Numbered from the stretch's first letter, positions 368 through 19,297 are shown. The stretch: 39,327 nucleotides of DNA from Coriobacteriales bacterium (GCA_031277035.1 JAISLY010000016.1:1-39327), one strand, 5' to 3'. A program made the numbers and translations. The notes: generated from the letters alone by a model not told the origin.

Positions 368-1840
368 CTATTCCCTGGCCGGTGCTTCCTCAGCAGGGGC
401 TTCCTCGGCCGGAGCCTCTTCAGCCGAGGCGTCCTTGGCAGCTTCAGCCTCGCCCGCGTCAGCGGTCTCGCCCTCAGCAGCCTCGTCGCCCTCAGCAGCC
501 TCACTCTCGGCGGTCTCCTCCGCAAGCGGCTCAGCAGACGTTTCTGCGCCCTGCTCCTCGTCCGCTTCGGCAGTCTCGCCCTCAGCGCCCTCGCTCTCCG
601 CTCCGCCCTCGGTAGCCTCAGCGCCCTCAGCCGCCTCGCCCTGCGTCTCCTCGCCCTGCTCCTCGCTGCGTTCCTTGCGGGTCTTTTGCTTGGCCTTGAC
701 GGGGGTCGGATCAAACTCAGCAACCGCAATCTCGATGCCAAGCGTCTCGGCGGCAGCCTTCATCGAAAGTGAGATGCGACGACGTTCGGGGTCGATGTCC
801 ATGACCTTGACATGCACCGCGTCGCCGACGTGCACGACCTGTGCGGGCGATTCGATATGACGGCCTGCCATCTCGGAGATGTGCACGAGGCCCTCAATAT
901 TGTCGCCGAGCTCAACAAAGGCACCGAAGCTGACCAGCTTGGTCACATGCCCCTCGATAATCGAGCCGATGGGGAAGTTTTTCACAAGCTGACGCCAGGG
1001 GTCCTCGGTCGTCTGCTTCAGGCCAAGCGAGATGCGCTCACGGCTCAAATCGACCTCGAGAACCTGAACCTCCACCTCGTCGCCAACCTTGACGACCTCG
1101 GAAGGATGAGAGACATGGTTCCAGGAAAGCTCGCTGATGTGCACAAGCCCGTCAATGCCGCCCAAATCGACAAAGGCACCGAAGTCAACGATGGAAGAGA
1201 CGGCGCCTTTCAGACGCATGCCCGCGACGAGCTTCTCAAGTATCTCGTTGCGCTCGTTCTTGCGTCCCTCCTCCAGCACAACGCGACGCGAGAGGACAAC
1301 GTTATTGCGGTTGCGGTCCATCTCAATGACCCGCGCCTCAATGCGTTCGCCCGTAAAGGATTCCAGGTCCTTCACACGGCGCAAATCGACCAGAGAGGCC
1401 GGCAGAAAGCCGCGCAGACCGATGTCGAGGATAAGACCGCCCTTGACGACCTCGATGACCTCGCCGACGACGTTTTCTCCCGTGTTGAACTTCTCCTCGA
1501 TATCAATCCAGGCACGCTCATACTCCGCGCGCTTCTTGGAAAGGATCAGGCGACCCTCCTTGTCCTCCTTCTGAAGCACAAGGGTCTCAATCTTCTCGCC
1601 GATGCTGACAAGCTCTGCGGGATCGAGGTCTTTGCGGATGGAGAGCTCGCGCACCGGGATGACGCCCTCCGACTTGAAGCCGATGTCGAGAAGCACCTCA
1701 TCGTGCTCTATCTTAACAACGATGCCGGTGACGAGGTCGCCCTCATCAAAGTCGGTAATCGTCTCGTCGACAAGCCGCGTGAGCTGCTCATCGTCAATCG
1801 GCTCAAGCTCAATCACCGAAGTGTTTTTGATCTCACTCAA
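368..1840 (-). CDS. rpsA: 30S ribosomal protein S1
   Basis: S1 binds mRNA on the 30S subunit and helps initiation. Four S1/OB-fold domains are visible at about residues 33-102, 120-186, 207-275 and 292-361. The third and fourth carry the typical FGAFVxLG...GLVHISE pattern. From about residue 385 to 490 the protein becomes a low-complexity acidic Ala/Glu tail that ends in three AEEAP repeats. I chose the TTG at 1840 because AAAGGGG sits 7 nt upstream and the protein then starts SEIKNTSVIELEP. An in-frame ATG at 1870 would add 10 residues but has a weaker ribosome binding site. A near-consensus promoter lies at 1973-2001, giving a leader of about 125 nt. Four S1 domains with an acidic extension is a usual Gram-positive arrangement; the tail length is likely strain-variable. 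Confidence 0.95.
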   Translation of the reverse strand: MSEIKNTSVIELEPIDDEQLTRLVDETITDFDEGDLVTGIVVKIEHDEVLLDIGFKSEGVIPVRELSIRKDLDPAELVSIGEKIETLVLQKEDKEGRLILSKKRAEYERAWIDIEEKFNTGENVVGEVIEVVKGGLILDIGLRGFLPASLVDLRRVKDLESFTGERIEARVIEMDRNRNNVVLSRRVVLEEGRKNERNEILEKLVAGMRLKGAVSSIVDFGAFVDLGGIDGLVHISELSWNHVSHPSEVVKVGDEVEVQVLEVDLSRERISLGLKQTTEDPWRQLVKNFPIGSIIEGHVTKLVSFGAFVELGDNIEGLVHISEMAGRHIESPAQVVHVGDAVHVKVMDIDPERRRISLSMKAAAETLGIEIAVAEFDPTPVKAKQKTRKERSEEQGEETQGEAAEGAEATEGGAESEGAEGETAEADEEQGAETSAEPLAEETAESEAAEGDEAAEGETADAGEAEAAKDASAEEAPAEEAPAEEAPARE

Positions 1841-2807: not shown

Positions 2808-2812
2808 TGCCT

Positions 2813-2935
2813 GCCTCGCCCGCCTCTCTCAGTTGGGCTGCCCCGGTTGCCTCGCCCGCCTCTCTCAGTGAGGCTGCCCCGGTTGCCTCGCCCGCCTCTC
2901 TCAGTGGGGCTGGCCCGGTTGCCTCGCCCGCCTCT
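2813..2935. repeat. 36-bp tandem repeat array, 3.4 copies
   Basis: Units start at 2813, 2849, 2885 and (partial) 2921, all beginning GCCTCGCCCGCCTCT, with a period of exactly 36 bp and few mismatches. The array lies between the convergent relE-type toxin and the EamA gene and overlaps the last codons of the latter. Read on the minus strand, each unit encodes RARQPGQPH followed by a TGA stop, so the EamA stop is simply the first of several duplicated stops. Confidence 0.85.
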
Positions 2936-3992
2936 GATGTTGATGGCGATGATGGATGTCCGGCTTGTGCGGATGTCTGTGGATGAGCTGCTCATGGGTG
3001 TGCAGATGACTGTGCTCGCCGATACAGACCGGCTCATGGCTGTGCAGATGGTGCTCATCGTCGTGGCGATGCCGGTGGTCATGGGTCTGGGGCTCATGGG
3101 TATGCAGATGCTCGTGGCGCTCAAAGACGGCGAGGTAGACCCCTGCGGCAATCAGACCCAAAGCCAGGGCAAAGGCCACGGTCAGCCTGTCTCGGAAGAT
3201 GACGAAGGAGAGCAGGGCGGAGATAAACGGCGCGAAGCTGGTGTAGGCCGAGGCACGGGCGGCGCCCACACCACGCTGCACGCGAATGACGAGGTAGTTG
3301 CCCAGGCCAAAGGAGATGGCGCCCAGAAGCAGGCCCAGGGGAACATACTCGGGACTCAGAACCTTTTCTCCCAGCACCAGGGAAAGACTCAGGGCTCCCA
3401 ATCCGGTAAAGGCGCTTTTGATCATGACAATCTGCAGGGGGTCTTTAACCGAGATCATCCGCGACAGGTTGTTGGTCAGGCCCCAGATGCAGGCCGACAA
3501 CAAGACCATCAGTGAGCCCGGGTTAAAACTAAAGGCCTCAAACCCTTCCCAGGTGAGCAGGATGCTGCCCGCCGTTATGGTCGCAATCGCCACCCAGAGG
3601 CGCCCTCCGATAGCTTCTTTGAAGAAGAGCATGGCAAAGAGCGCGGTCGTGACAAACTCAAAGTTATGCAGCAGTGAGGAGTTTGCGGGCGACGTCATGG
3701 AAAGCCCCACCATATAGCAGACAGGCGCTACCGTATCGCCTATCAAAATGCCCAGGAAAGGTGCTCGGTCCTCCTTCATCAGCGGCGTCTCCAGGCGCGT
3801 TTTGCCCCGCCAGCGCTCCCAGAGTTTTGCCAGACCTGCCCACAGACAGGCTCCCAGATACATAAGCGCCGCCAACAGAACAGGCGGCAGGCCTCCCATC
3901 AGGAGCTTATTGCCCGGTGTGGAGAGGCTGAAGGCCAGGGTGGCAATTCCGGCCAGGACAAGCGCGCGGCGCTGTTCGCTTAACGTACCCAT
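2901..3992 (-). CDS. EamA/DMT-family transporter with histidine-rich C-terminal tail
   Basis: A 363-residue inner-membrane protein. About ten hydrophobic segments fill residues 10-300 in two similar halves, as expected for EamA (drug/metabolite) exporters. From about residue 303 a soluble tail holds roughly 24 histidines in 60-70 residues (HEHLHTHE, HDHRHRHDDEHH, HSHLHTHE, HHRHQH), suggesting binding of zinc, nickel or cobalt. The motif HLHTHE appears twice, so the tail grew by duplication. The last residues (RARQPGQPH) come from a 36-bp DNA repeat. The ATG at 3992 overlaps the end of the URO-D-like gene by 13 nt, so it is the last gene of the ABC transporter operon. The substrate is unknown; export of an amino acid or metabolite is the family expectation. 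Confidence 0.85.
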   Translation of the reverse strand: MGTLSEQRRALVLAGIATLAFSLSTPGNKLLMGGLPPVLLAALMYLGACLWAGLAKLWERWRGKTRLETPLMKEDRAPFLGILIGDTVAPVCYMVGLSMTSPANSSLLHNFEFVTTALFAMLFFKEAIGGRLWVAIATITAGSILLTWEGFEAFSFNPGSLMVLLSACIWGLTNNLSRMISVKDPLQIVMIKSAFTGLGALSLSLVLGEKVLSPEYVPLGLLLGAISFGLGNYLVIRVQRGVGAARASAYTSFAPFISALLSFVIFRDRLTVAFALALGLIAAGVYLAVFERHEHLHTHEPQTHDHRHRHDDEHHLHSHEPVCIGEHSHLHTHEQLIHRHPHKPDIHHRHQHQRRARQPGQPH

Positions 3993-5068
3993 GACCGAGC
4001 ATGCTCTGCAAAGGATTTGGCCTCATCCTCACTGGTGCAATCGACAAAGAGGAACACGCCGTCCTGGGGGATGTTGTCCATCAGCCGGATAGCCTGTTCT
4101 GGTGAGAGGTCGGGTATCACCACTTTGATTCGCTCGAGGGCCTGTTGGTAGAACTCATAGATATGCGGCTGATTGTAGTCGATGACCTTCCTGCCCTGGG
4201 AATCCAGGCGATGCGTCGGCCCCCAGATGATGGAGTGCAGGCGCGGCACCTGTAAAACGCAGGGCAGGAGGCGCAGGTAGGTATCACCGTCCATGCCGTA
4301 AAAGACGCGCGGCAGGGCTGCCGACTCCAGGGTCAGAGCGGGCAGGGATACCTGCTCAAAACATTGGGGAGAAAGCATCACCGAAAGCTCGCTGAATACC
4401 GGGAACCAATCCTGGTCGTTGACCAGGGGCAGTTCGGCCGGAATGTAATCCTGATAGCGACGCAACTGGGCCAGGTTCTCGCGGCGCAGCTCATCCAGCA
4501 GGCCGGCAAGCCAGGCCAGCTGGCGCGAGACCCGCTCGGGCTCAAAGAGTATATCTTCCAGCAGGGCGCCGCGCTCATAGAGAGAAGCGAGACTGTCCAG
4601 GCTCCCACCAAAATCGGCCAAAGCCACCAGGTAGCGTCCGCAGGCCCGCTCCAGAAGCGTCTGAGTGAGCTGGCGATATGCCTGGTAGAATTCCGTATCC
4701 CGCCTGATCTGCAAGGCGAAGACCGACTCCGGGTCCGCAGAGGGCCACTGGTCATACCAGATGGTCTGCTCCCGCAACTCATAGGGCCGGCCCAGCAGCG
4801 CGGGCAACATGCCCGGCCCAAAGTCCAGCATGGCTACCGGCACGGCATCGAGGCCAAACCAGGTTCCCTCTAAGGCATTCTCGATAACCTGGACGCGATA
4901 ATCGACATCCAGCCACTGTTGATGCAGGTCTCGAGGAGGAGGCGCGGCCACCCTGTCATCGCGGGGTGCGTTAATCGAGATGTAGGCCCCTTCTCCTGCG
5001 TATTTGGGCCCCCAGAAGCGGCGATGTCTGCGCAGACGCTCTGCGAACTGCGCATCGTCTAAGAGCAT
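3980..5068 (-). CDS. URO-D-like family protein (uroporphyrinogen decarboxylase / corrinoid methyltransferase fold)
   Basis: A 362-residue protein. The layout (GRYLVALADFGGSLDSLASL, then VNDQDWFPVFSELSVMLSP, then VFYGMDGDTYLRLL, then IIWGPTHR near the C-terminus) resembles URO-D superfamily proteins often annotated as trimethylamine corrinoid protein 2. It is not a classical HemE. At the place where corrinoid methyltransferases carry a zinc-binding HxC, this protein reads GMD; one late Cys is present (VDCTSEDEA). Its reaction is therefore unknown. The ATG at 5068 has GAGGGGA upstream. It sits 34 nt after the ABC ATPase gene and overlaps the EamA gene, so it belongs to the transporter operon. 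A role on the imported compound is an inference from that context. Confidence 0.7.
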   Translation of the reverse strand: MLLDDAQFAERLRRHRRFWGPKYAGEGAYISINAPRDDRVAAPPPRDLHQQWLDVDYRVQVIENALEGTWFGLDAVPVAMLDFGPGMLPALLGRPYELREQTIWYDQWPSADPESVFALQIRRDTEFYQAYRQLTQTLLERACGRYLVALADFGGSLDSLASLYERGALLEDILFEPERVSRQLAWLAGLLDELRRENLAQLRRYQDYIPAELPLVNDQDWFPVFSELSVMLSPQCFEQVSLPALTLESAALPRVFYGMDGDTYLRLLPCVLQVPRLHSIIWGPTHRLDSQGRKVIDYNQPHIYEFYQQALERIKVVIPDLSPEQAIRLMDNIPQDGVFLFVDCTSEDEAKSFAEHARSWVR

Positions 5069-5102
5069 GACAGTCCCCTCGGTCGTCCCGACGCCCTCGG
5101 CA

Positions 5103-5888
5103 TCAGATATACTCGCCGCTTTGCGCCGGGATGACATCGGTGGCGATGATGAAGCGACGCATGGCGTTGACCAAAAACTGCTTGCCGCGCTCGGTCTTTG
5201 GGTCGTGAAAGAAGTCCGCCGTGGGCCCCTGTTCACTGATCATGCCGTCGTCGAGAAGAACAATCTCATCGGCCACGTCATAGGCAAAACCAATCTCGTG
5301 CGTCACCAGCAACATCGTGTTACCGCCTTTTGCCAGATCCCTGATGCACTGCAAAACATCTTCGGCCAGTTCTGGATCAAGGGCCGAGGTTGGCTCATCG
5401 AAGAGAAGCACCTCGGGCTTTAAGGCCAGGGCCCGCGCGATGGCCACCCGCTGCTGCTGACCGCCTGACAGTTGCGAAGGAAATGCCTTGAGTTTATCAG
5501 TCAGTCCGACAACCTCCAAAACCTCTTCCGCCTGCCGTATGGCTTCTGCTTTTGCAATGCCACGGGCGTCGGTCAGCCCGATAGTCACATTTTTCAGGAC
5601 ATTGAGGTTTTTGAAAAGGTTGAACTGCTGAAAGACCATGGCCGTCTTGGTGCGCAGCTTAAAGATGTCAGAGGCGCTCGCCGCACTCGCATCCACCCGA
5701 ACATCATCGATCTCGATAGTGCCGGCTTCCGGACGCTCCAGAAAGTTTATGCAGCGCAAAAGCGTGGATTTACCCGAACCCGATGGGCCGAGGATAGCCA
5801 CCACCTGGCCTTTGTGCACCTCCAAATCGACACCCTTCAAGACCTTATGGGCGTCAAAGGATTTTTCCACACCGACAAGCTTGATCAT
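5103..5888 (-). CDS. Polar amino acid ABC transporter ATP-binding protein (GlnQ/HisP type)
   Basis: A 261-residue ATPase that powers amino acid uptake with the adjacent permease and binding protein. Walker A GPSGSGKS is at residues 34-41, the Q-loop lies in MVFQQFNLF, the signature LSGGQQQR is followed by Walker B LLFDEP and the D-loop SALDPE, and the H-loop is in LVTHEIGFA. The length and the HDPKTERGKQFL-like C-terminus fit the polar amino acid subfamily. The start overlaps the permease stop by 4 nt (ATGA), so translation is coupled. The specific amino acid cannot be read from the sequence. Confidence 0.95.
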   Translation of the reverse strand: MIKLVGVEKSFDAHKVLKGVDLEVHKGQVVAILGPSGSGKSTLLRCINFLERPEAGTIEIDDVRVDASAASASDIFKLRTKTAMVFQQFNLFKNLNVLKNVTIGLTDARGIAKAEAIRQAEEVLEVVGLTDKLKAFPSQLSGGQQQRVAIARALALKPEVLLFDEPTSALDPELAEDVLQCIRDLAKGGNTMLLVTHEIGFAYDVADEIVLLDDGMISEQGPTADFFHDPKTERGKQFLVNAMRRFIIATDVIPAQSGEYI

Positions 5889-6607
5889 TGTGCCAGACTC
5901 CTCCTTGAACGGCTCAGACGGTATTCAACGATTCTGAATATCAGTTCGACGATGATGCAGACCACCCAATAGATAATCGAGACGGCAAAATACGCCTCCA
6001 GGTAACGCAGCGAGCGCGCCCCGACGATTCTTGCCATTCCCATCACATCCACGACAGTGACCGTAAAGGCCAGGCTGGAATCCTTGATAAGACCCAACAG
6101 GGAGTTACCGAGATTGGGCAGGGCATTGAGGGCGGCCTGCGGAAAGACGACCTTGAGCATCACCTTCAGGGGGCCAAGTCCGATGGATTCTGCGGCCTCC
6201 AGCTGTCCTCGATCCACCGATTCGATGGCCGAGCGAATCAATTCCGAGCTATAGGCCGAGGTGGCAATGCTCAGAGCAACGATGGCAAAGGCCTCGGGTG
6301 GCAAAAGATTGAAGTCATACGACCAACCGGGATTGATCAGGGTACCAATCTGCTGAATCAGCCAGGGCAGGCCATAAAAGACCAGGAGCAGCTGCACAAC
6401 GGTGGGCGTACCGCGAATGAAAGAGACGTAGACGATACAGATCTGATTGATGACGGGCACCCTGTAGATACGGATAAGGGCGATGCCAATTGCCAGCAGG
6501 GTACCCAGGAACATGGGTACCAGCGAGATGACCAGGGTCACCGGCAGGCGTTCGGCAATCACGCCGATTATCTGTAGCATGTAGCCCAGATCAAGTTCTT
6601 TGATCAC
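5885..6607 (-). CDS. Polar amino acid ABC transporter permease
   Basis: A 240-residue membrane protein of the HisM/GlnP family. It has about five hydrophobic segments. The EAA loop is present as RGQLEAAESIGLGPLKVMLKVVFPQA, the contact with the ATPase. The N-terminal FIRGTPTVVQLL motif is typical of the family. Translation starts at a GTG (6607) with GGGGG 7 nt upstream. The gene follows the binding protein gene after 111 nt that contain a large hairpin, and overlaps the ATPase gene. Only one permease gene is present, so the transporter would use a homodimeric channel. Confidence 0.95.
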   Translation of the reverse strand: MIKELDLGYMLQIIGVIAERLPVTLVISLVPMFLGTLLAIGIALIRIYRVPVINQICIVYVSFIRGTPTVVQLLLVFYGLPWLIQQIGTLINPGWSYDFNLLPPEAFAIVALSIATSAYSSELIRSAIESVDRGQLEAAESIGLGPLKVMLKVVFPQAALNALPNLGNSLLGLIKDSSLAFTVTVVDVMGMARIVGARSLRYLEAYFAVSIIYWVVCIIVELIFRIVEYRLSRSRRSLAQ

Positions 6608-6633
6608 GCGAGAACCCCCAACATCTATCGCGC

Positions 6634-6705
6634 CTTCTGTCCGGCTCCGGCGCTCCCTTCAGCGGGCCTGCTCAGCAGACCTGCGCCCCTGAAGCCGGAC
6701 AGAAG
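6634..6705 (-). repeat. Long inverted repeat between binding protein and permease genes
   Basis: CTTCTGTCCGGCT (6634-6646) pairs perfectly with AGCCGGACAGAAG (6693-6705), a 13-bp outer stem. The 46-nt interior can form further pairs, such as GGGC/GCCC and CTGCT-C-AGCAG. It fills most of the 111-nt gap downstream of the binding protein gene. Such intercistronic hairpins commonly protect the upstream message or cause partial termination, making the binding protein more abundant than permease and ATPase. That role is inferred. Confidence 0.65.
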
Positions 6706-6718
6706 AACTTCGATTGGC

Positions 6719-7603
6719 TCAACGACGCGGCGTAAAGTCCTGCTCCAGCCACTGCTCAGAGAGTCTTGTGATGGTGCCGTCCTCAATTAACTCGATGATG
6801 ATGGGGTCGAGGAGTGCCTTGAGCTCCAAACCGTGATCATTTTTGGGCAAAACGACGGCAATGGGTTCGGTTGCAACAGGCTCACCGACAATCTCAACCT
6901 CCAGGTTCAACTCCTTGATATACGCGCGGGTCATGACGGGGTCCTCAACGACCGCCACAACCTGCTCGTTGACGATCTGCTCAAATTCCTGCACGGTGTC
7001 ATAATCGGCGTAGACGATCTCGATGGGATTGTCCGGGTGCTCGCTGTTGTAGTTTTCCAGAATCTGCGAATAGGAGCTGCCCGGCTGCCCGGCCACTCGC
7101 TTGCCAGCCAGGTCGTCCAGCGATTGAACCTCCTGATTTCCCTTCTTGACCACAATCACGCTCTGGGCGGTAAAGTAGGGTTCTGAGAAGTAGTAGGATT
7201 CCTCGCGTTCGGCGGTTACCGCCATCTGATCGATCATCATGTCAAAACGACCGGCGGCAACACCGACCAGGCCGCTGTCTGAAGACATGACGTGCTCGAT
7301 GGTATAGCCCGCAAGACGGGCGTCCAGCTCCCGGACGAACTCGGCGTCCAGGCCATTGAGCGTGCCATCCGTATCCAGGAAGGTAAAGGGCGGGTAATCA
7401 TTTTGGGTGGCGTTGTAAAGAACCGTATCGCCAGGTTCGACAGGAGCCCCACTTGGATAATTGCCGCTGGCGGTAACCCCGGCAGCCTCTTCATTGCTCG
7501 CCTGTCCGCTGGAACAGCCAGCCAGAGCCAGGCCTGCACCCGATGCGGCGGCAACGATACCGAGCTTCACAAAACTGCGGCGCGATAGAGACGACTTCTC
7601 CAT
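6719..7603 (-). CDS. Amino acid ABC transporter substrate-binding lipoprotein
   Basis: A 294-residue periplasmic-binding-protein-like (SBP family 3) lipoprotein. The N-terminus has SRRSFVK, which fits a Tat signal, then a hydrophobic stretch and the lipobox LAGC, so it should be lipid-anchored outside the membrane. The mature part carries family 3 features: YPPFTFLDTDGTLNGLDAEFVREL, DMMIDQMAVTAEREESYYFSEPY and LAGKRVAGQPGSSY. I chose the ATG at 7603 because GGGAGG stands just upstream; the ATG at 7615 lacks a binding site. It is the first gene of the operon, behind a strong promoter (7665-7693). The ligand is probably a polar or charged amino acid but is not determined. Confidence 0.93.
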   Translation of the reverse strand: MEKSSLSRRSFVKLGIVAAASGAGLALAGCSSGQASNEEAAGVTASGNYPSGAPVEPGDTVLYNATQNDYPPFTFLDTDGTLNGLDAEFVRELDARLAGYTIEHVMSSDSGLVGVAAGRFDMMIDQMAVTAEREESYYFSEPYFTAQSVIVVKKGNQEVQSLDDLAGKRVAGQPGSSYSQILENYNSEHPDNPIEIVYADYDTVQEFEQIVNEQVVAVVEDPVMTRAYIKELNLEVEIVGEPVATEPIAVVLPKNDHGLELKALLDPIIIELIEDGTITRLSEQWLEQDFTPRR

Positions 7604-7632
7604 GTTCCCTCCCATGTCTGATTTTACTACTT

Positions 7633-7653
7633 AACTTATATGTTTTATAAGTT
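7633..7653. repeat. AT-rich 21-bp palindrome, operator candidate
   Basis: AACTTATA (7633-7640) and TATAAGTT (7646-7653) form a perfect 8-bp inverted repeat around a 5-nt centre. It lies just downstream of the predicted transcription start of the ABC transporter operon and upstream of the ribosome binding site. That location suits a repressor operator. It is the most AT-rich stretch in this neighbourhood. Confidence 0.5.
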
Positions 7654-7664
7654 TTCTAGCGGCA

Positions 7665-7693
7665 AGTATAGGGGGAGCTGCGAACGCTGTCAA
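7665..7693 (-). promoter_or_regulatory. Near-consensus sigma-70 promoter of the ABC transporter operon
   Basis: Minus strand: -35 TTGACA (7688-7693) is fully consensus, the spacer is 17 nt, and -10 TATACT (7665-7670) matches five of six. Start is predicted near 7658, giving a leader of about 55 nt that contains the palindrome at 7633-7653. Confidence 0.75.
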
Positions 7694-7780
7694 GTTGTCG
7701 CGCGGAAGCGTCGCTGAGAAAGCGAGAAACAGGCCGTTGAGAAGCCTTCGTGCAGGGCGTTGAGAAGAGACGGGGAGGAA

Positions 7781-10144
7781 TCAGGGGCCGATGCGAACCA
7801 CAGGCGCGTAGCCAAGAAGCAGTTTTTTTGTCGCGTCACTTTTTTGAAAGTGTATCGAGAGGGCGTCACCTTCAATCGCAACGACCACTCCCCTGCCAAA
7901 TATCTTGTGATCAACCTCGTCTCCGACCGAGAAGACGACCTGCTCTCGCGGGGTATGTGCGGCCATGCGTTCCTTCCGTGACCCCGAGCCGAATATGCCG
8001 TGGCGATCGCCGCGCTTCTCCCAGCCGAATCCCTGCAGGCCCTGTGAGCCAACGCCGCTTGTTCGAAGCAGTTCGGTTGGCAGTTCGGCCACAAAGCGTG
8101 AACACGGGTTTGCCTGCGCCCTGCCAAAAAGGTTGCGGGTCTGTGCATGGGACATACAAAGGAGTTCACGGGCACGTGTGATGGCCACATAGGCCAGGCG
8201 CCGCTCCTCCTCAACACCGCTCTCTCCCTCAAAGGCGGCGACATGCGGAAAGAGGGATTCCTCGAGCCCGGCAATGAAGACGATGGGGAACTCAAGGCCT
8301 TTTGCGGAATGCATGGTCATGAGGGTCAGGTAGTCATCACCCACGCCAAGCGTATCGAGGTCTGAGCGCAGCGCAAGCCATTCCATGAAGGAGATAAGCT
8401 GCAGGTCGGCCCCGGCCGCACCCTCGTCGCCCTCATCGGCCCCGGCCGCATCCGCCGTGGCGCCGTCACCCCCTGTGATGCCACCCGCGCCTGCACCTGT
8501 GCCGCCACCCGCGCCTGCATCTGTGCCGCCACCCGCACCTGCGCCCTCATCGGCCCCGGTCGCCTCGTCGTCCTCATCCTCCTGATGCGTCTGGTCGTAC
8601 TCCCCTGCAACGCCAAAAAACTCCCGGATGTTCTCAATGCGACCCCGCGCCTCATCGCTCTGCTCGGCCTCAAGCGCGGCGATAAGCCCGCTTTTCTCAA
8701 CAAGCATCTCCACAATGCTGCGCAGCTCGCCCCGATAGCCTCGCGCATCCTTTATCAGTTGACAGAACTGCGCAAGCTCACCGCGCGCTCGGACGGGCAG
8801 AGACGATGAGGCGCTGATGTGCTCAGCGGCCTCCATGAAGCTCAGATTTTCCTCGATGGCCTTTGCGGTGATAAGATCAATCGCCTTTTTGCCAAGGCCG
8901 CGTTTCGGCGTATTTATCACCCTGCGCGCCGCGAGGTCATCCAGCGGATTGACGACAAGCTTCAGGTAGGCCATGACGTCACGTATCTCCGCACGGTCAA
9001 AAAAGCGGGTGCCTCCCACAATACGATAGGGCACCCCGGCACGCAGGAGCATATCCTCAAGGATGCGCGACTGGGCATTCGTGCGATAGAAGACGGCAAA
9101 CTGGCGATACCCTCTCCCCTCACGATGCAGGCGCTCGACCTCCGAAGCGATCCAGCGACCCTCGTCGCGCTCGTCCGCGGCCTGGTAGACGGCGATGTTC
9201 TCGCCGCGCGCACCCTCGGTGTAGAGTCGTTTTGCCTTGCGGTTGGCGTTGTGTGCAATCAGGGCATTGGCCGCCTCAAGGATGACCGAAGTCGAGCGGT
9301 AGTTGCGCTCAAGACGTACGACCTTCGCGTCGGGATAATCTTCCTCAAATTCGAGAATATTGCGAACATCGGCCCCGCGCCAGGAGTAGATGGATTGGTC
9401 GTCATCGCCCACCACCATCAGATTACGGTGCGCCTGAGCCAGCAGGGTGCTGATCCGATACTGGGCGTGGTTCGTGTCCTGATACTCGTCTACCAGGAGG
9501 TAACGGAAGCGCCCCTGATACGCTGCGAGCACGTCGGGGTTATCGCGCAACAGGAGCCAGGCGCCTAACAGCAGGTCGTCAAAGTCCATCGCATCCGCGC
9601 GGCGCAGACGCTCCTGGAGCGCCTGGTAGAGACGGGCCGCAAGACGCAGGTGGCTGGTATCGGCCCGCGCCGCAAACTCCTCAGCGGTCAGAAGCTCGTT
9701 TTTTGCGTTTGAAATGGCCGCGCGCATGCCGTTTATCGGGAATTGCCGCGTATCGATGTTTTCCTGCGCGTACAGCTCCCTGAACAGGCGCTTTGAGTCG
9801 TCCTCGTCATAGATGGAGAAGTTGCGCGTGTAGCCCAGTCTGTCGGCATCTCCGCGCAGGAGACGGACGCACATGGCGTGAAAAGTCTGCACCCACATGC
9901 CCCGCAGACCATGCTCAAGCAGGCCCGCGAGTCGCTCGCGCATCTCGGCGGCAGCCTTGTTCGTGAAGGTGATGGCAAGTATCTGGTAGGGCGAGACGCC
10001 AAGGTTGCGCACGAGATGCGCGATGCGATAGGTCAGCACCCGCGTCTTGCCGGAGCCCGCGCCGGCAAGCACCAGTAAGGGGCCCTCGGTCGTCTCAACC
10101 GCTTCTCGCTGAGCGGTGTTTAAGGAATCAAGGTCAAGTGACAT
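7781..10144 (-). CDS. pcrA: ATP-dependent DNA helicase PcrA/UvrD
   Basis: A superfamily 1A 3'-5' helicase for repair and replication. Seen: Q-motif LNTAQREAV, Walker A AGAGSGKT, TFTNKAAAEM, DEYQDTN (motif II), GDDDQSIYSWRGA (motif III), RNYRST (motif IV), TMHSAKGLEF (motif V) and AITRAR (motif VI). The C-terminus (VGDEVDHKIFGRGVVVAIEGD...) is the PcrA-type Tudor-like domain that contacts RNA polymerase. About 60 residues near 521-582 are a Gly/Ala/Asp-rich insertion between subdomain 2B and SFMEWLALRSDLD, built partly from 24-bp repeats. I prefer ATG 10144 from family alignment; ATG 10159 (five residues longer) is also possible, and neither has a well-spaced ribosome binding site. It is the third gene after chorismate mutase and DAHP synthase. 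Confidence 0.95.
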   Translation of the reverse strand: MSLDLDSLNTAQREAVETTEGPLLVLAGAGSGKTRVLTYRIAHLVRNLGVSPYQILAITFTNKAAAEMRERLAGLLEHGLRGMWVQTFHAMCVRLLRGDADRLGYTRNFSIYDEDDSKRLFRELYAQENIDTRQFPINGMRAAISNAKNELLTAEEFAARADTSHLRLAARLYQALQERLRRADAMDFDDLLLGAWLLLRDNPDVLAAYQGRFRYLLVDEYQDTNHAQYRISTLLAQAHRNLMVVGDDDQSIYSWRGADVRNILEFEEDYPDAKVVRLERNYRSTSVILEAANALIAHNANRKAKRLYTEGARGENIAVYQAADERDEGRWIASEVERLHREGRGYRQFAVFYRTNAQSRILEDMLLRAGVPYRIVGGTRFFDRAEIRDVMAYLKLVVNPLDDLAARRVINTPKRGLGKKAIDLITAKAIEENLSFMEAAEHISASSSLPVRARGELAQFCQLIKDARGYRGELRSIVEMLVEKSGLIAALEAEQSDEARGRIENIREFFGVAGEYDQTHQEDEDDEATGADEGAGAGGGTDAGAGGGTGAGAGGITGGDGATADAAGADEGDEGAAGADLQLISFMEWLALRSDLDTLGVGDDYLTLMTMHSAKGLEFPIVFIAGLEESLFPHVAAFEGESGVEEERRLAYVAITRARELLCMSHAQTRNLFGRAQANPCSRFVAELPTELLRTSGVGSQGLQGFGWEKRGDRHGIFGSGSRKERMAAHTPREQVVFSVGDEVDHKIFGRGVVVAIEGDALSIHFQKSDATKKLLLGYAPVVRIGP
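8480..8551. repeat. 24-bp tandem repeats inside pcrA, three copies
   Basis: Units begin at 8480, 8504 and 8528, each starting GCCACCCGC, with only a few substitutions between copies. On the coding strand they give three near-identical 8-residue Gly/Ala blocks (GTDAGAGG, GTGAGAGG and a variant). They lie in a linker where other PcrA proteins have a short loop. Confidence 0.75.
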
Positions 10145-15502: not shown

Positions 15503-16342
15503 TCAGCTCTTGGCGGCCAGCTCCTCTTCGGCGAGGGCCAGGCGCGTACTGCTGCGGATGGCAAGGTCGAGAGGCGCGTCGCTTGCCGCGAGGGCGGCTC
15601 TGAGCAAGACATCGGGGCGAATTGAGCCCTGCGGCCCGGAGCGCAGGGTCATGGCGACCTGATAGCGCCCCTCCGCCTCCTCAGAAGCGCAGAAGCAGGG
15701 GGCTGCCACAAGCCCTGCCCTGAGGTCGTAGGTCTTGCGCTGCTCCCTGCGTCCCTTCTTTCGTTCAATGGTCACTTCGCCGGTCTCAAGCAGACGCGCC
15801 AGACCCTGCTTGAGAAGAAAGAGCGGCTCGGTCGCAGCCCCGGCTGCAACGCCTGCCGCCGCGCCGGCCTCAGCTGCAGCGCCCACCCCTGCGCCCGCCC
15901 CTGCGCCGGCCTCGGCCGCAGCGCCCACTGCCTCGGGCGCACTCGCCTCTGCCATCGCCCCTCTCCCAAGCTGTATCTCGAGGGAATAGTCTTCGATAAC
16001 GTGAGTCGCCGCAAGCCCTTTGGCTTTGGGGTCAACATAGGTGACCTCGCGTATCTCAAGGCCCGGCACGGTGGCGCGGCGCAGGGCATGCAGCGCAGGC
16101 TCGGCCTTCACATACTCCGTAAGCCAGACATCAAAGAGTTCGCCGAGGCCCCGTGTGCCAACCGGAAGCGCCGGGCCCGGCGCGTGACGCATATGCGCGG
16201 AAAACCCCTGAGTGACCGCAAAGGGAAGACCGGAACGACGAATGAGACGCTCAAGGGCACGGACCAGTTCGAGGTGCGAGAGATAGGCGAGACGGCCCGT
16301 CTTCGCGTAGCACATCCTCAGGCGAAACGTCGCCTCAGCCAT
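15503..16342 (-). CDS. DUF2344 / TIGR03936 family protein
   Basis: A 279-residue protein of the family that accompanies, and is sometimes fused to, TIGR03960 radical SAM proteins. The start MAEATFRLRMCYAKTGRLAYLSHLELVRALERLIRRSGLPFAVTQGFS... shows the conserved opening of the family (KTG-x-L-x-YLSHLE, then R-x-GLP-x-x-TQGF). Function is not established; the family has been linked by context to RNA modification or ribonuclease G. The ATG at 16342 overlaps the radical SAM stop by 8 nt, with AGGTG upstream, so the two are coupled. About residues 126-172 are an Ala/Gly-rich insertion built from direct repeats (GCGCCGGCCTC at 15861 and 15903), absent from the usual family core. Confidence 0.85.
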   Translation of the reverse strand: MAEATFRLRMCYAKTGRLAYLSHLELVRALERLIRRSGLPFAVTQGFSAHMRHAPGPALPVGTRGLGELFDVWLTEYVKAEPALHALRRATVPGLEIREVTYVDPKAKGLAATHVIEDYSLEIQLGRGAMAEASAPEAVGAAAEAGAGAGAGVGAAAEAGAAAGVAAGAATEPLFLLKQGLARLLETGEVTIERKKGRREQRKTYDLRAGLVAAPCFCASEEAEGRYQVAMTLRSGPQGSIRPDVLLRAALAASDAPLDLAIRSSTRLALAEEELAAKS

Positions 16343-18191: not shown

Positions 18192-19297
18192 ACGGACGCG
18201 ACCTTCGCCCGGCGCTCCTGCAGCCCTTTGTCAAGGCCTGCAGCGATACGGCGCACATCGCCGCCCTGGCTGAAGAACAGAGCGGCCGCCTTGCCCAGGG
18301 CGAAGGTCGCGCTGTAGGCGACAGCAGCCTTCACCGCCCAACCGAACAGAGGGAGGGCACCGACGAGGCGACGCGCCAGGGCGCGAAACCCCAGGCCTCC
18401 TGCCAGCAGCACGGCAAGCTCCCTCAGACGCGTATGGTCCATCGGCATATCGTAGGCGGCGGCAATCTGCAAAACCATCTTCACCTGGTTCAGGGTCAGA
18501 ATGGGCAGGTCGGCCCCGGGAATGAAAAAGGCTGCGGCGACAGCCGCGTTTTGCAGGGAGGTCGCCTGGATGCGGTCAGAGACGTAGGCCTGCCTGACAA
18601 AGGACAGATTTCGCGCCAGGGCAGGCGCAAGGTCGGGCAGACGACGCACAATCCAGGCGCCCAGGCGCACGAAGAGCGCGGTAAGCGCACGCTCATCCTC
18701 CTCGGCAGTAACAACGCCGCTCGCACCGCCCTCGCCCGCACCCCCGGCGCCCCCGGCCGCAGCACCCTCGCTCGCACCGCCCTCAACGCCGGCGGCGCCC
18801 CCGGCCGCAGCACCCTCGCTCGCACCGCCCTCATCGCCGCCAGCGCCACCCTCGCCCGCACCCCCGGCGCCCCCGGCCGCAGCAACAGGAAGCGCGATAA
18901 GCGCACGGGGGTCGAGCAGCTCGCGGTGCGCACCTGCAAGGGACTCGAGCAGGCCCGCATCGCGCGTCACAATAACCGCGGGAATCTCTGCCCTGAGCGC
19001 CTCAAGCATCACGGCAAACGTCGCCGGTGCGTCGTTTGCAATAACGATTACCAGGTCGCAGTCCGCCACAGAAACATGCGCCGTCTCACGATAGGGCACC
19101 AGGCGTATCTTCAACATCTCAGAGGCGGGGCGCAGCTCCCGTTTTGCGACTGCCAGCAGGGCCTCGTCTATCCCCTCATCGACAAAGACATCGAGCAACA
19201 GGGGCTTTGCGCTCTCCTCAGACGCCACGCCGAGGGCCGCAGTAAGGGCCCTGGGGCTTACCGGAAGCCCCCGTCTCTTCTTTGCAGCAGCAGACAT
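18188..19297 (-). CDS. DUF697-type membrane-associated protein with Ala/Gly-rich insert
   Basis: A 369-residue protein with GGAG before its ATG. Residues about 30-125 look like an alpha/beta domain with CDLVIVIANDAPATFAV and PAVIVTRDAGLLESL, but no P-loop is seen. Residues about 139-196 are an Ala/Gly/Glu-rich low-complexity insert made by DNA duplication. Residues about 205-355 resemble DUF697 (SDRIQATSLQNAAVAAAFFIPGADLPILTLNQVKMVLQIAAAY), the C-terminal part of YcjF-like and GTPase-linked membrane proteins. It lies 21 nt after rodA and overlaps the radical SAM gene. Function is unknown; the place in the cell-shape cluster suggests an envelope role. Confidence 0.75.
   Translation of the reverse strand: MSAAAKKRRGLPVSPRALTAALGVASEESAKPLLLDVFVDEGIDEALLAVAKRELRPASEMLKIRLVPYRETAHVSVADCDLVIVIANDAPATFAVMLEALRAEIPAVIVTRDAGLLESLAGAHRELLDPRALIALPVAAAGGAGGAGEGGAGGDEGGASEGAAAGGAAGVEGGASEGAAAGGAGGAGEGGASGVVTAEEDERALTALFVRLGAWIVRRLPDLAPALARNLSFVRQAYVSDRIQATSLQNAAVAAAFFIPGADLPILTLNQVKMVLQIAAAYDMPMDHTRLRELAVLLAGGLGFRALARRLVGALPLFGWAVKAAVAYSATFALGKAAALFFSQGGDVRRIAAGLDKGLQERRAKVASV
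18730..18884. repeat. GC-rich duplication inside the DUF697-type gene
   Basis: A block of about 35 bp beginning CCTCGCCCGCACCCCCGGCG occurs at 18730 and again 120 bp later at 18850. Within it, a GGCGCCCCCGGCCGCAGCA core also recurs at 18794. All steps (48, 72 and 120 bp) are multiples of three, so the frame is kept. Confidence 0.75.

Follow-up and report, generated by a model that had tools for sequence, protein, structure and literature searches.

A polar-amino-acid-type ABC importer paired with a divergent URO-D-like protein in a recurrent four-gene cassette

What might a protein resembling uroporphyrinogen decarboxylase (URO-D) be doing in the operon of an amino acid importer, and does the presumed exporter gene behind it belong to the same pathway? 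The question arises from a 39,327-nucleotide stretch of Coriobacteriales DNA (the window), contig C52 of a 1.8-Mb genome bin that is 72.7 per cent complete. The initial annotation saw here five genes on one strand behind one strong promoter, and suggested import of an amino-acid-like compound, its processing, and export of a product, with a histidine-rich tail on the exporter sensing or binding a metal. The layout was borne out: genes for a binding protein (SBP), a permease, an ATPase, the URO-D-like protein (P0001) and an EamA-family transporter lie on the minus strand where they had been placed (Table 1), with gaps of 111 nt (SBP–permease) and 34 nt (ATPase–URO-D) and overlaps of 4 nt (permease/ATPase) and 13 nt (URO-D/EamA). 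Because of this last overlap, the EamA and URO-D genes are probably co-transcribed. The strong promoter likewise held up; a scan of the region returned three sites against 1.8 expected, and only the one at 7693–7665 exceeds 9/12 matches. An operator-like palindrome follows it, and an Rfam search upstream of the operon found no riboswitch or other Rfam RNA. The stem-loop between the first two genes (folding energy −53.2 kcal/mol, z −2.66) probably sets the usual surplus of SBP over permease message. Convergent with the operon end, on the plus strand, is a pair of genes for a DUF6290 antitoxin-like protein (2311–2541) and a ParE-type toxin (2541–2807).

Table 1. Positions of the operon features in the window and of the corresponding cassettes in two other genomes
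Feature	Position	Strand	Basis or remark
36-bp tandem repeat array, 3.4 copies	2812..2935		runs into last eamA codons
EamA-family membrane transporter	2901..3992	(-)	PF00892, 1e-27; window-specific addition
His-rich C-terminal tail of EamA protein	2904..3113	(-)	~24 His in last ~70 residues
P0001, 362-aa protein of predicted URO-D fold, derived HLDGP-branch offshoot	3980..5068	(-)	sequence search, tree, predicted structure
PAAT-type ABC ATPase	5103..5888	(-)	Pfam, NCBIfam
PAAT-type ABC permease	5885..6607	(-)	PF00528; GTG start
Intercistronic stem-loop	6634..6705	(-)	between SBP and permease genes; 13-bp perfect arms 6634-6646, 6693-6705
SBP, family-3 (polar amino acid type) lipoprotein	6719..7603	(-)	PF00497; ATG at 7603, ORF from 7615
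Operator-like palindrome AACTTAT-N7-ATAAGTT, perfect 7-bp	7633..7653		promoter-to-first-gene interval; read directly in sequence
Sigma-70-type promoter TTGACA-17-TATACT	7665..7693	(-)	consensus scan, 11/12 matches
Cassette of congener G001, on L004	1923-5831		SBP 1923-2924, permease 3047-3769, ATPase about 3766-4551, URO-D 4548-5831
Cassette of L100	5492-8906		SBP 5492-6286, permease about 6322-7038, ATPase 7035-7787, URO-D 7797-8906

The importer half of the operon is of a familiar kind, a polar-amino-acid-type (PAAT) ABC importer composed of a family-3 SBP, a 3TM-type permease and an ABC ATPase. The SBP matches SBP_bac_3 (2e-27) and carries a Tat-like signal (SRRSFVK) and a lipobox (LAGC), the permease matches BPD_transp_1 (3e-19) and scores above the cut-off of TIGR01726, and the ATPase matches ABC_tran (2e-37), its nearest NCBIfam models being cystine TcyN and GlnQ, each below cut-off. 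The best NCBIfam model for each of the three proteins is a cystine one, but all scores fall far under the equivalog cut-offs (PRK11260, 99.9/312 bits; PRK15100, 163.8/300; PRK11264, 293.6/406), and cystine specificity (Tcy) was not accepted. All three proteins are thus of the same type as the cystine (TcyJ/TcyL/TcyN) and GlnHPQ transporters, from which the cassette differs in its single permease gene and its additional URO-D gene. In this SBP family an arginine and an aspartate clamp alpha-amino acids. Judged by alignment with AncQR (4zv1), the SBP retains these clamping residues as R137 and D225 (numbered from 7615), invariant in all three cassettes described below, although the clamp is generic.

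P0001 is less easily placed. Its start is most likely the ATG at 5068, from which it aligns end to end with a protein of a Spirochaetaceae genome (L100); an alternative 418-aa frame from the GTG at 5236 would overlap the ATPase gene. No match was found in Pfam, NCBIfam, PHROGs or PDB sequences, and none to PF01208 up to E=10, a model that recognizes 13 of 75 relatives, weakly (best 4.9e-6). The structure predicted from an alignment of 75 sequences is nevertheless confident (pLDDT 95.4, pTM 0.92, against a pLDDT of only 39 with a two-sequence alignment). Because the best 16 PDB fold matches of this model are all URO-D or the MtaA-type methyltransferase of M. mazei (probability 1.00, TM ~0.6), with URO-D itself at the top, P0001 is taken to be a URO-D-fold protein. 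The motif alignment upholds the claim that it has no HxC: the HxCG of MtaA aligns with GMDG (YGMDGD) in P0001, and with HLDG (YHLDGP) in its parent branch, so that the HxC...C motif of MtaA-type zinc methyltransferases is missing. True URO-D, however, has no HxC motif. Its absence from P0001 is for that reason less telling than had been held, and also because zinc-free methyltransferases of the superfamily have been published, such as CdmB, which works with a corrinoid protein (PMC13222342). P0001 shares a predicted barrel with the superfamily (uroporphyrinogen decarboxylase, MtaA/MtbA, O-demethylase MTIs such as MtvB, and CdmB), but differs from it in its low identity (9–12 per cent, at TM ~0.6), in having neither a PF01208 match nor HxC, and in the setting of its gene, beside an amino-acid importer in an operon without a corrinoid partner.

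Relatives of P0001 are sparse nearby and plentiful farther off. Among 400 genomes of the class the only true homologue is that of the congener G001 (39–40 per cent identical), and a phylum-wide search added one distant relative, L011, with YHLDGPGALTHID and AIQWVPG. Scanning genome contigs with the single P0001 sequence gave no match, and plasmids and viral contigs held no relatives; an L011-based scan of 84,980 species genomes with one motif pattern found 146, of which 80 were kept, from Bacillota, Chloroflexota, Spirochaetota, Planctomycetota, Lokiarchaeota and others. Two weak class and phylum profile matches were dropped as an unrelated peptidase and a phage-type protein (L008, L009), and L012 proved to be a different URO-D-like ORF adjoining canonical URO-D. 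This HLDGP branch (L022–L101, L132–L155) is large, extends over many bacterial phyla and Lokiarchaeota, and is not modelled as a family in either Pfam or NCBIfam; it deserves to be treated as a separate family. Its loci carry mostly carbohydrate genes (GH4, GH31, GH127, rhamnosidases, LacI, FGGY kinases, sugar transporters), some members adjoin MtaB (L027, L028), RACo-like activators (L059, L043) or a corrinoid protein (L087), and canonical URO-D genes lie near in about a dozen loci.

Against this background the importer stands out. A PAAT importer lies directly upstream of the URO-D-like gene in only three of 83 loci, those of the window, of G001 and of L100, a Spirochaetaceae UBA1318 genome from another phylum, and all three have the order SBP–permease–ATPase–URO-D. 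Three is a minimum, given a scan with one motif pattern and 80 of 146 relatives kept, and all three cassettes come from metagenome-assembled genomes; the taxonomic label of L100 derives from binning, and because of its divergence it is an independent lineage in any case. Five Spirochaetota loci (L132–L136) and L152 of Christensenellaceae were ruled out as further cassettes, having an HLDGP protein and no PAAT importer. L152, the nearest relative outside the cassettes, has as neighbours a sulfatase, GH123 and an oxidoreductase of the Gfo/Idh/MocA type. The three cassette proteins form one clade (support 100/100) in a maximum-likelihood tree of 85 members. The half of the proposed linkage that joins importer to URO-D-like protein therefore passes in both other neighbourhoods, and its recurrence in another phylum argues that the pairing is real, one for which no report was found in the literature library searched. 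Between window and L100 the identities are 38.5 (SBP), 50 (permease), 61 (ATPase) and 40.6 per cent (URO-D). The window SBP is 74 per cent identical to that of the congener and 39 per cent to that of L100, against at most 32 per cent for the SBPs found in 60 relatives beyond the genus; importer and enzyme thus moved together. Directly upstream of the G001 cassette is a gene for a NifB-like radical SAM protein (L004 644–1588), with no counterpart there in the window.

It might be expected that so rare a set, carried by very few genomes and grouping distant taxa in the tree, records a single capture of the URO-D gene by an ordinary importer operon, which then spread horizontally without functional coupling. 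Order and tight spacing were retained, however, while the importer diverged to 39–61 per cent identity and the URO-D gene to 40 per cent, and the reading frames are intact in all three cassettes. Such hitch-hiking is accordingly improbable, and a gene order that persists through such divergence speaks for a functional unit.

The presumed exporter fares differently. EamA was not found by phmmer in the G001 or L100 cassettes, nor in the genome of the congener, a bin 77 per cent complete; this incompleteness notwithstanding, the linkage is absent in G001, because the gene after URO-D there is a convergent LuxR-type gene. The histidine-rich tail exists as claimed, but it is missing in all five EamA homologues compared, those from other families of the order (37–41 per cent identical) ending right after the last helix, and a metal-sensing or metal-binding role was rejected as a general feature, since the tail is not conserved with the transporter. 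Its coding region holds imperfect 24-nt direct repeats and abuts the 36-bp array, and the simplest view is of a lineage-specific tail of repeat origin. In-frame tandem repeats occur elsewhere in the window (378–628, 8472–8542, 15843–15907, 18712–18847) and beyond it (L177 1162–1286, 3218–3306, 5052–5191; L005 1714–1787; L004 4594–4699), in an S1-like tail, PcrA/UvrD helicase, HtpG, SelD/HypE-like and RACo-like proteins and the N-terminus of the congener URO-D-like protein. Low-complexity insertions inside housekeeping proteins or at their termini are apparently a genus-wide habit.

With EamA unlinked in both other cassettes and its homologues tail-less, product export and metal sensing by the tail rest on one genome; of the import–process–export proposal, import and a probable processing enzyme stand, and EamA as a member of the linked set does not. 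EamA is a local addition, which may export a compound but which the core function does not need. A decarboxylase-type relative of URO-D that works on the amino-acid-like compound taken up, while EamA sends the product out, would account for the top fold match and for the probable co-transcription of the two genes. Against it, in addition to the two cassettes without EamA, the P0001 branch is separate from true URO-D, and its parent branch is linked with sugar and methyl-transfer genes. We consider this scheme very improbable.

What sets the cassette proteins apart from their parent branch is the barrel itself. Homology is clear, with D260-G261, W104, D152 and D158 conserved in all three, but six of 27 near-invariant positions (D227, F228, H258, Q281, G285, W303), each at least 90 per cent conserved in the remaining members, are changed in every cassette protein; conservation of H258 is partly a selection effect, as it lies within the search motif, and the other five lie outside it. 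Comparable trios of other members lose a mean of 0.3 and a maximum of two such positions and have on average 10.2 clade-specific fixed residues, never more than 19; the cassette trio has 23. Both excesses argue for a common functional shift, not random decay. Catalytic residues of TIM barrels lie at the C-terminal ends of strands, which is where the secondary structure of the model places positions 258–261, 281–285 and 342–344; E227 and V342-D343, gained in common by all three proteins, are also at strand ends. On the predicted structure, then, the active-site end of the barrel is remodelled in a manner common to the three.

The same substitutions admit a less constructive reading, in which the URO-D-like protein has lost its enzyme activity and survives as a non-catalytic relic or a regulator, tuning uptake or scavenging by binding to the importer or to the compound that is brought in. 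Near-invariant positions are missing in large number (14 of 27 in P0001, 11 in the congener and nine in L100, against a median of one in other members), with His258 of HLDG replaced by Gly or Asn and Arg164 by Tyr or Leu. Between congeners the importer proteins are 74–76 per cent identical and the URO-D proteins 39 per cent (dN 0.18–0.20 and 0.62, respectively, with dN/dS well below 1 and dS saturated), and G001 carries a second, truncated copy of the gene's 3' end (L005 8649–8912, beside TetR-type and fumarate-reductase-like genes). The residue losses and this roughly threefold faster change could mean that the ancestral catalysis is gone. Retention of the four conserved elements, D260-G261 among them, and the common gains at strand ends would not be expected from decay, however, and the predicted barrel is confidently folded, with no regulatory domain. 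A relic or regulator is thus rather unlikely, though to be taken seriously. Within the genus the change has gone further than in L100. As far as these comparisons go, the congener pattern is what a shift in function would leave if relaxed or diversifying evolution came after it; it is also conceivable that one congener's copy was replaced by a foreign one.

There is more reason to think that the unit couples uptake to conversion. The polar-amino-acid-type importer would bring an alpha-amino-acid-like compound into the cell, where the conserved URO-D-fold enzyme encoded by the fourth cassette gene would convert it, independently of zinc, in the cytoplasm. This reading was preferred because of the recurrent cassette, the predicted fold and its common remodelling, the dN/dS well below 1, the SBP clamp, the methyl-transfer neighbours of the parent branch and, elsewhere in the window genome (L177, outside the operon), a corrinoid protein that stands alone (3624–4262) together with a RACo-like activator; it is a tentative one, to which we would give a little less than an even chance. 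As to chemistry, ancestry makes methyl or C1 transfer the likeliest guess, perhaps with that corrinoid protein. Genes for a corrinoid protein, an activator or any other catabolic function are missing from all three cassettes, so that the operon is not a self-contained corrinoid methyltransferase system, and most parent-branch loci carry glycoside hydrolases, sugar transporters and LacI instead of methyl-transfer genes; both points speak against this reading. MtaA-like proteins also occur outside methanogens in Type 1 mlp clusters, some with methionine transporters, for which methyl-sulfur or methyl-selenide metabolism has been proposed (PMC10418091). The likeness is that of URO-D-superfamily proteins in anaerobes; those clusters, however, include corrinoid proteins together with activators, and membership requires >25 per cent identity to a characterised coenzyme M methyltransferase (PMC10418091), and P0001 does not qualify. 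A bolder version, which we regard as unlikely though worth stating, is a transferable uptake-and-conversion unit whose enzyme, without the zinc HxC and the parent-branch histidine, performs a new reaction on the imported amino-acid-like compound (e.g. corrinoid-dependent or metal-free C1 removal), with E227 and V342-D343-C344 in the remodelled active site.

Whatever the reaction, the cassette clade adjoins a PAAT importer, in contrast to the sugar-catabolism or methyl-transfer genes beside the HLDGP branch. A so far uncharacterised group within the URO-D superfamily is thereby linked with a defined uptake system. Binding proteins lend themselves to ligand screening, so the cassette gives direct access to the substrate of the HLDGP protein branch, and it shows that the zinc-free HLDG-type barrel of this branch can undergo additional remodelling.
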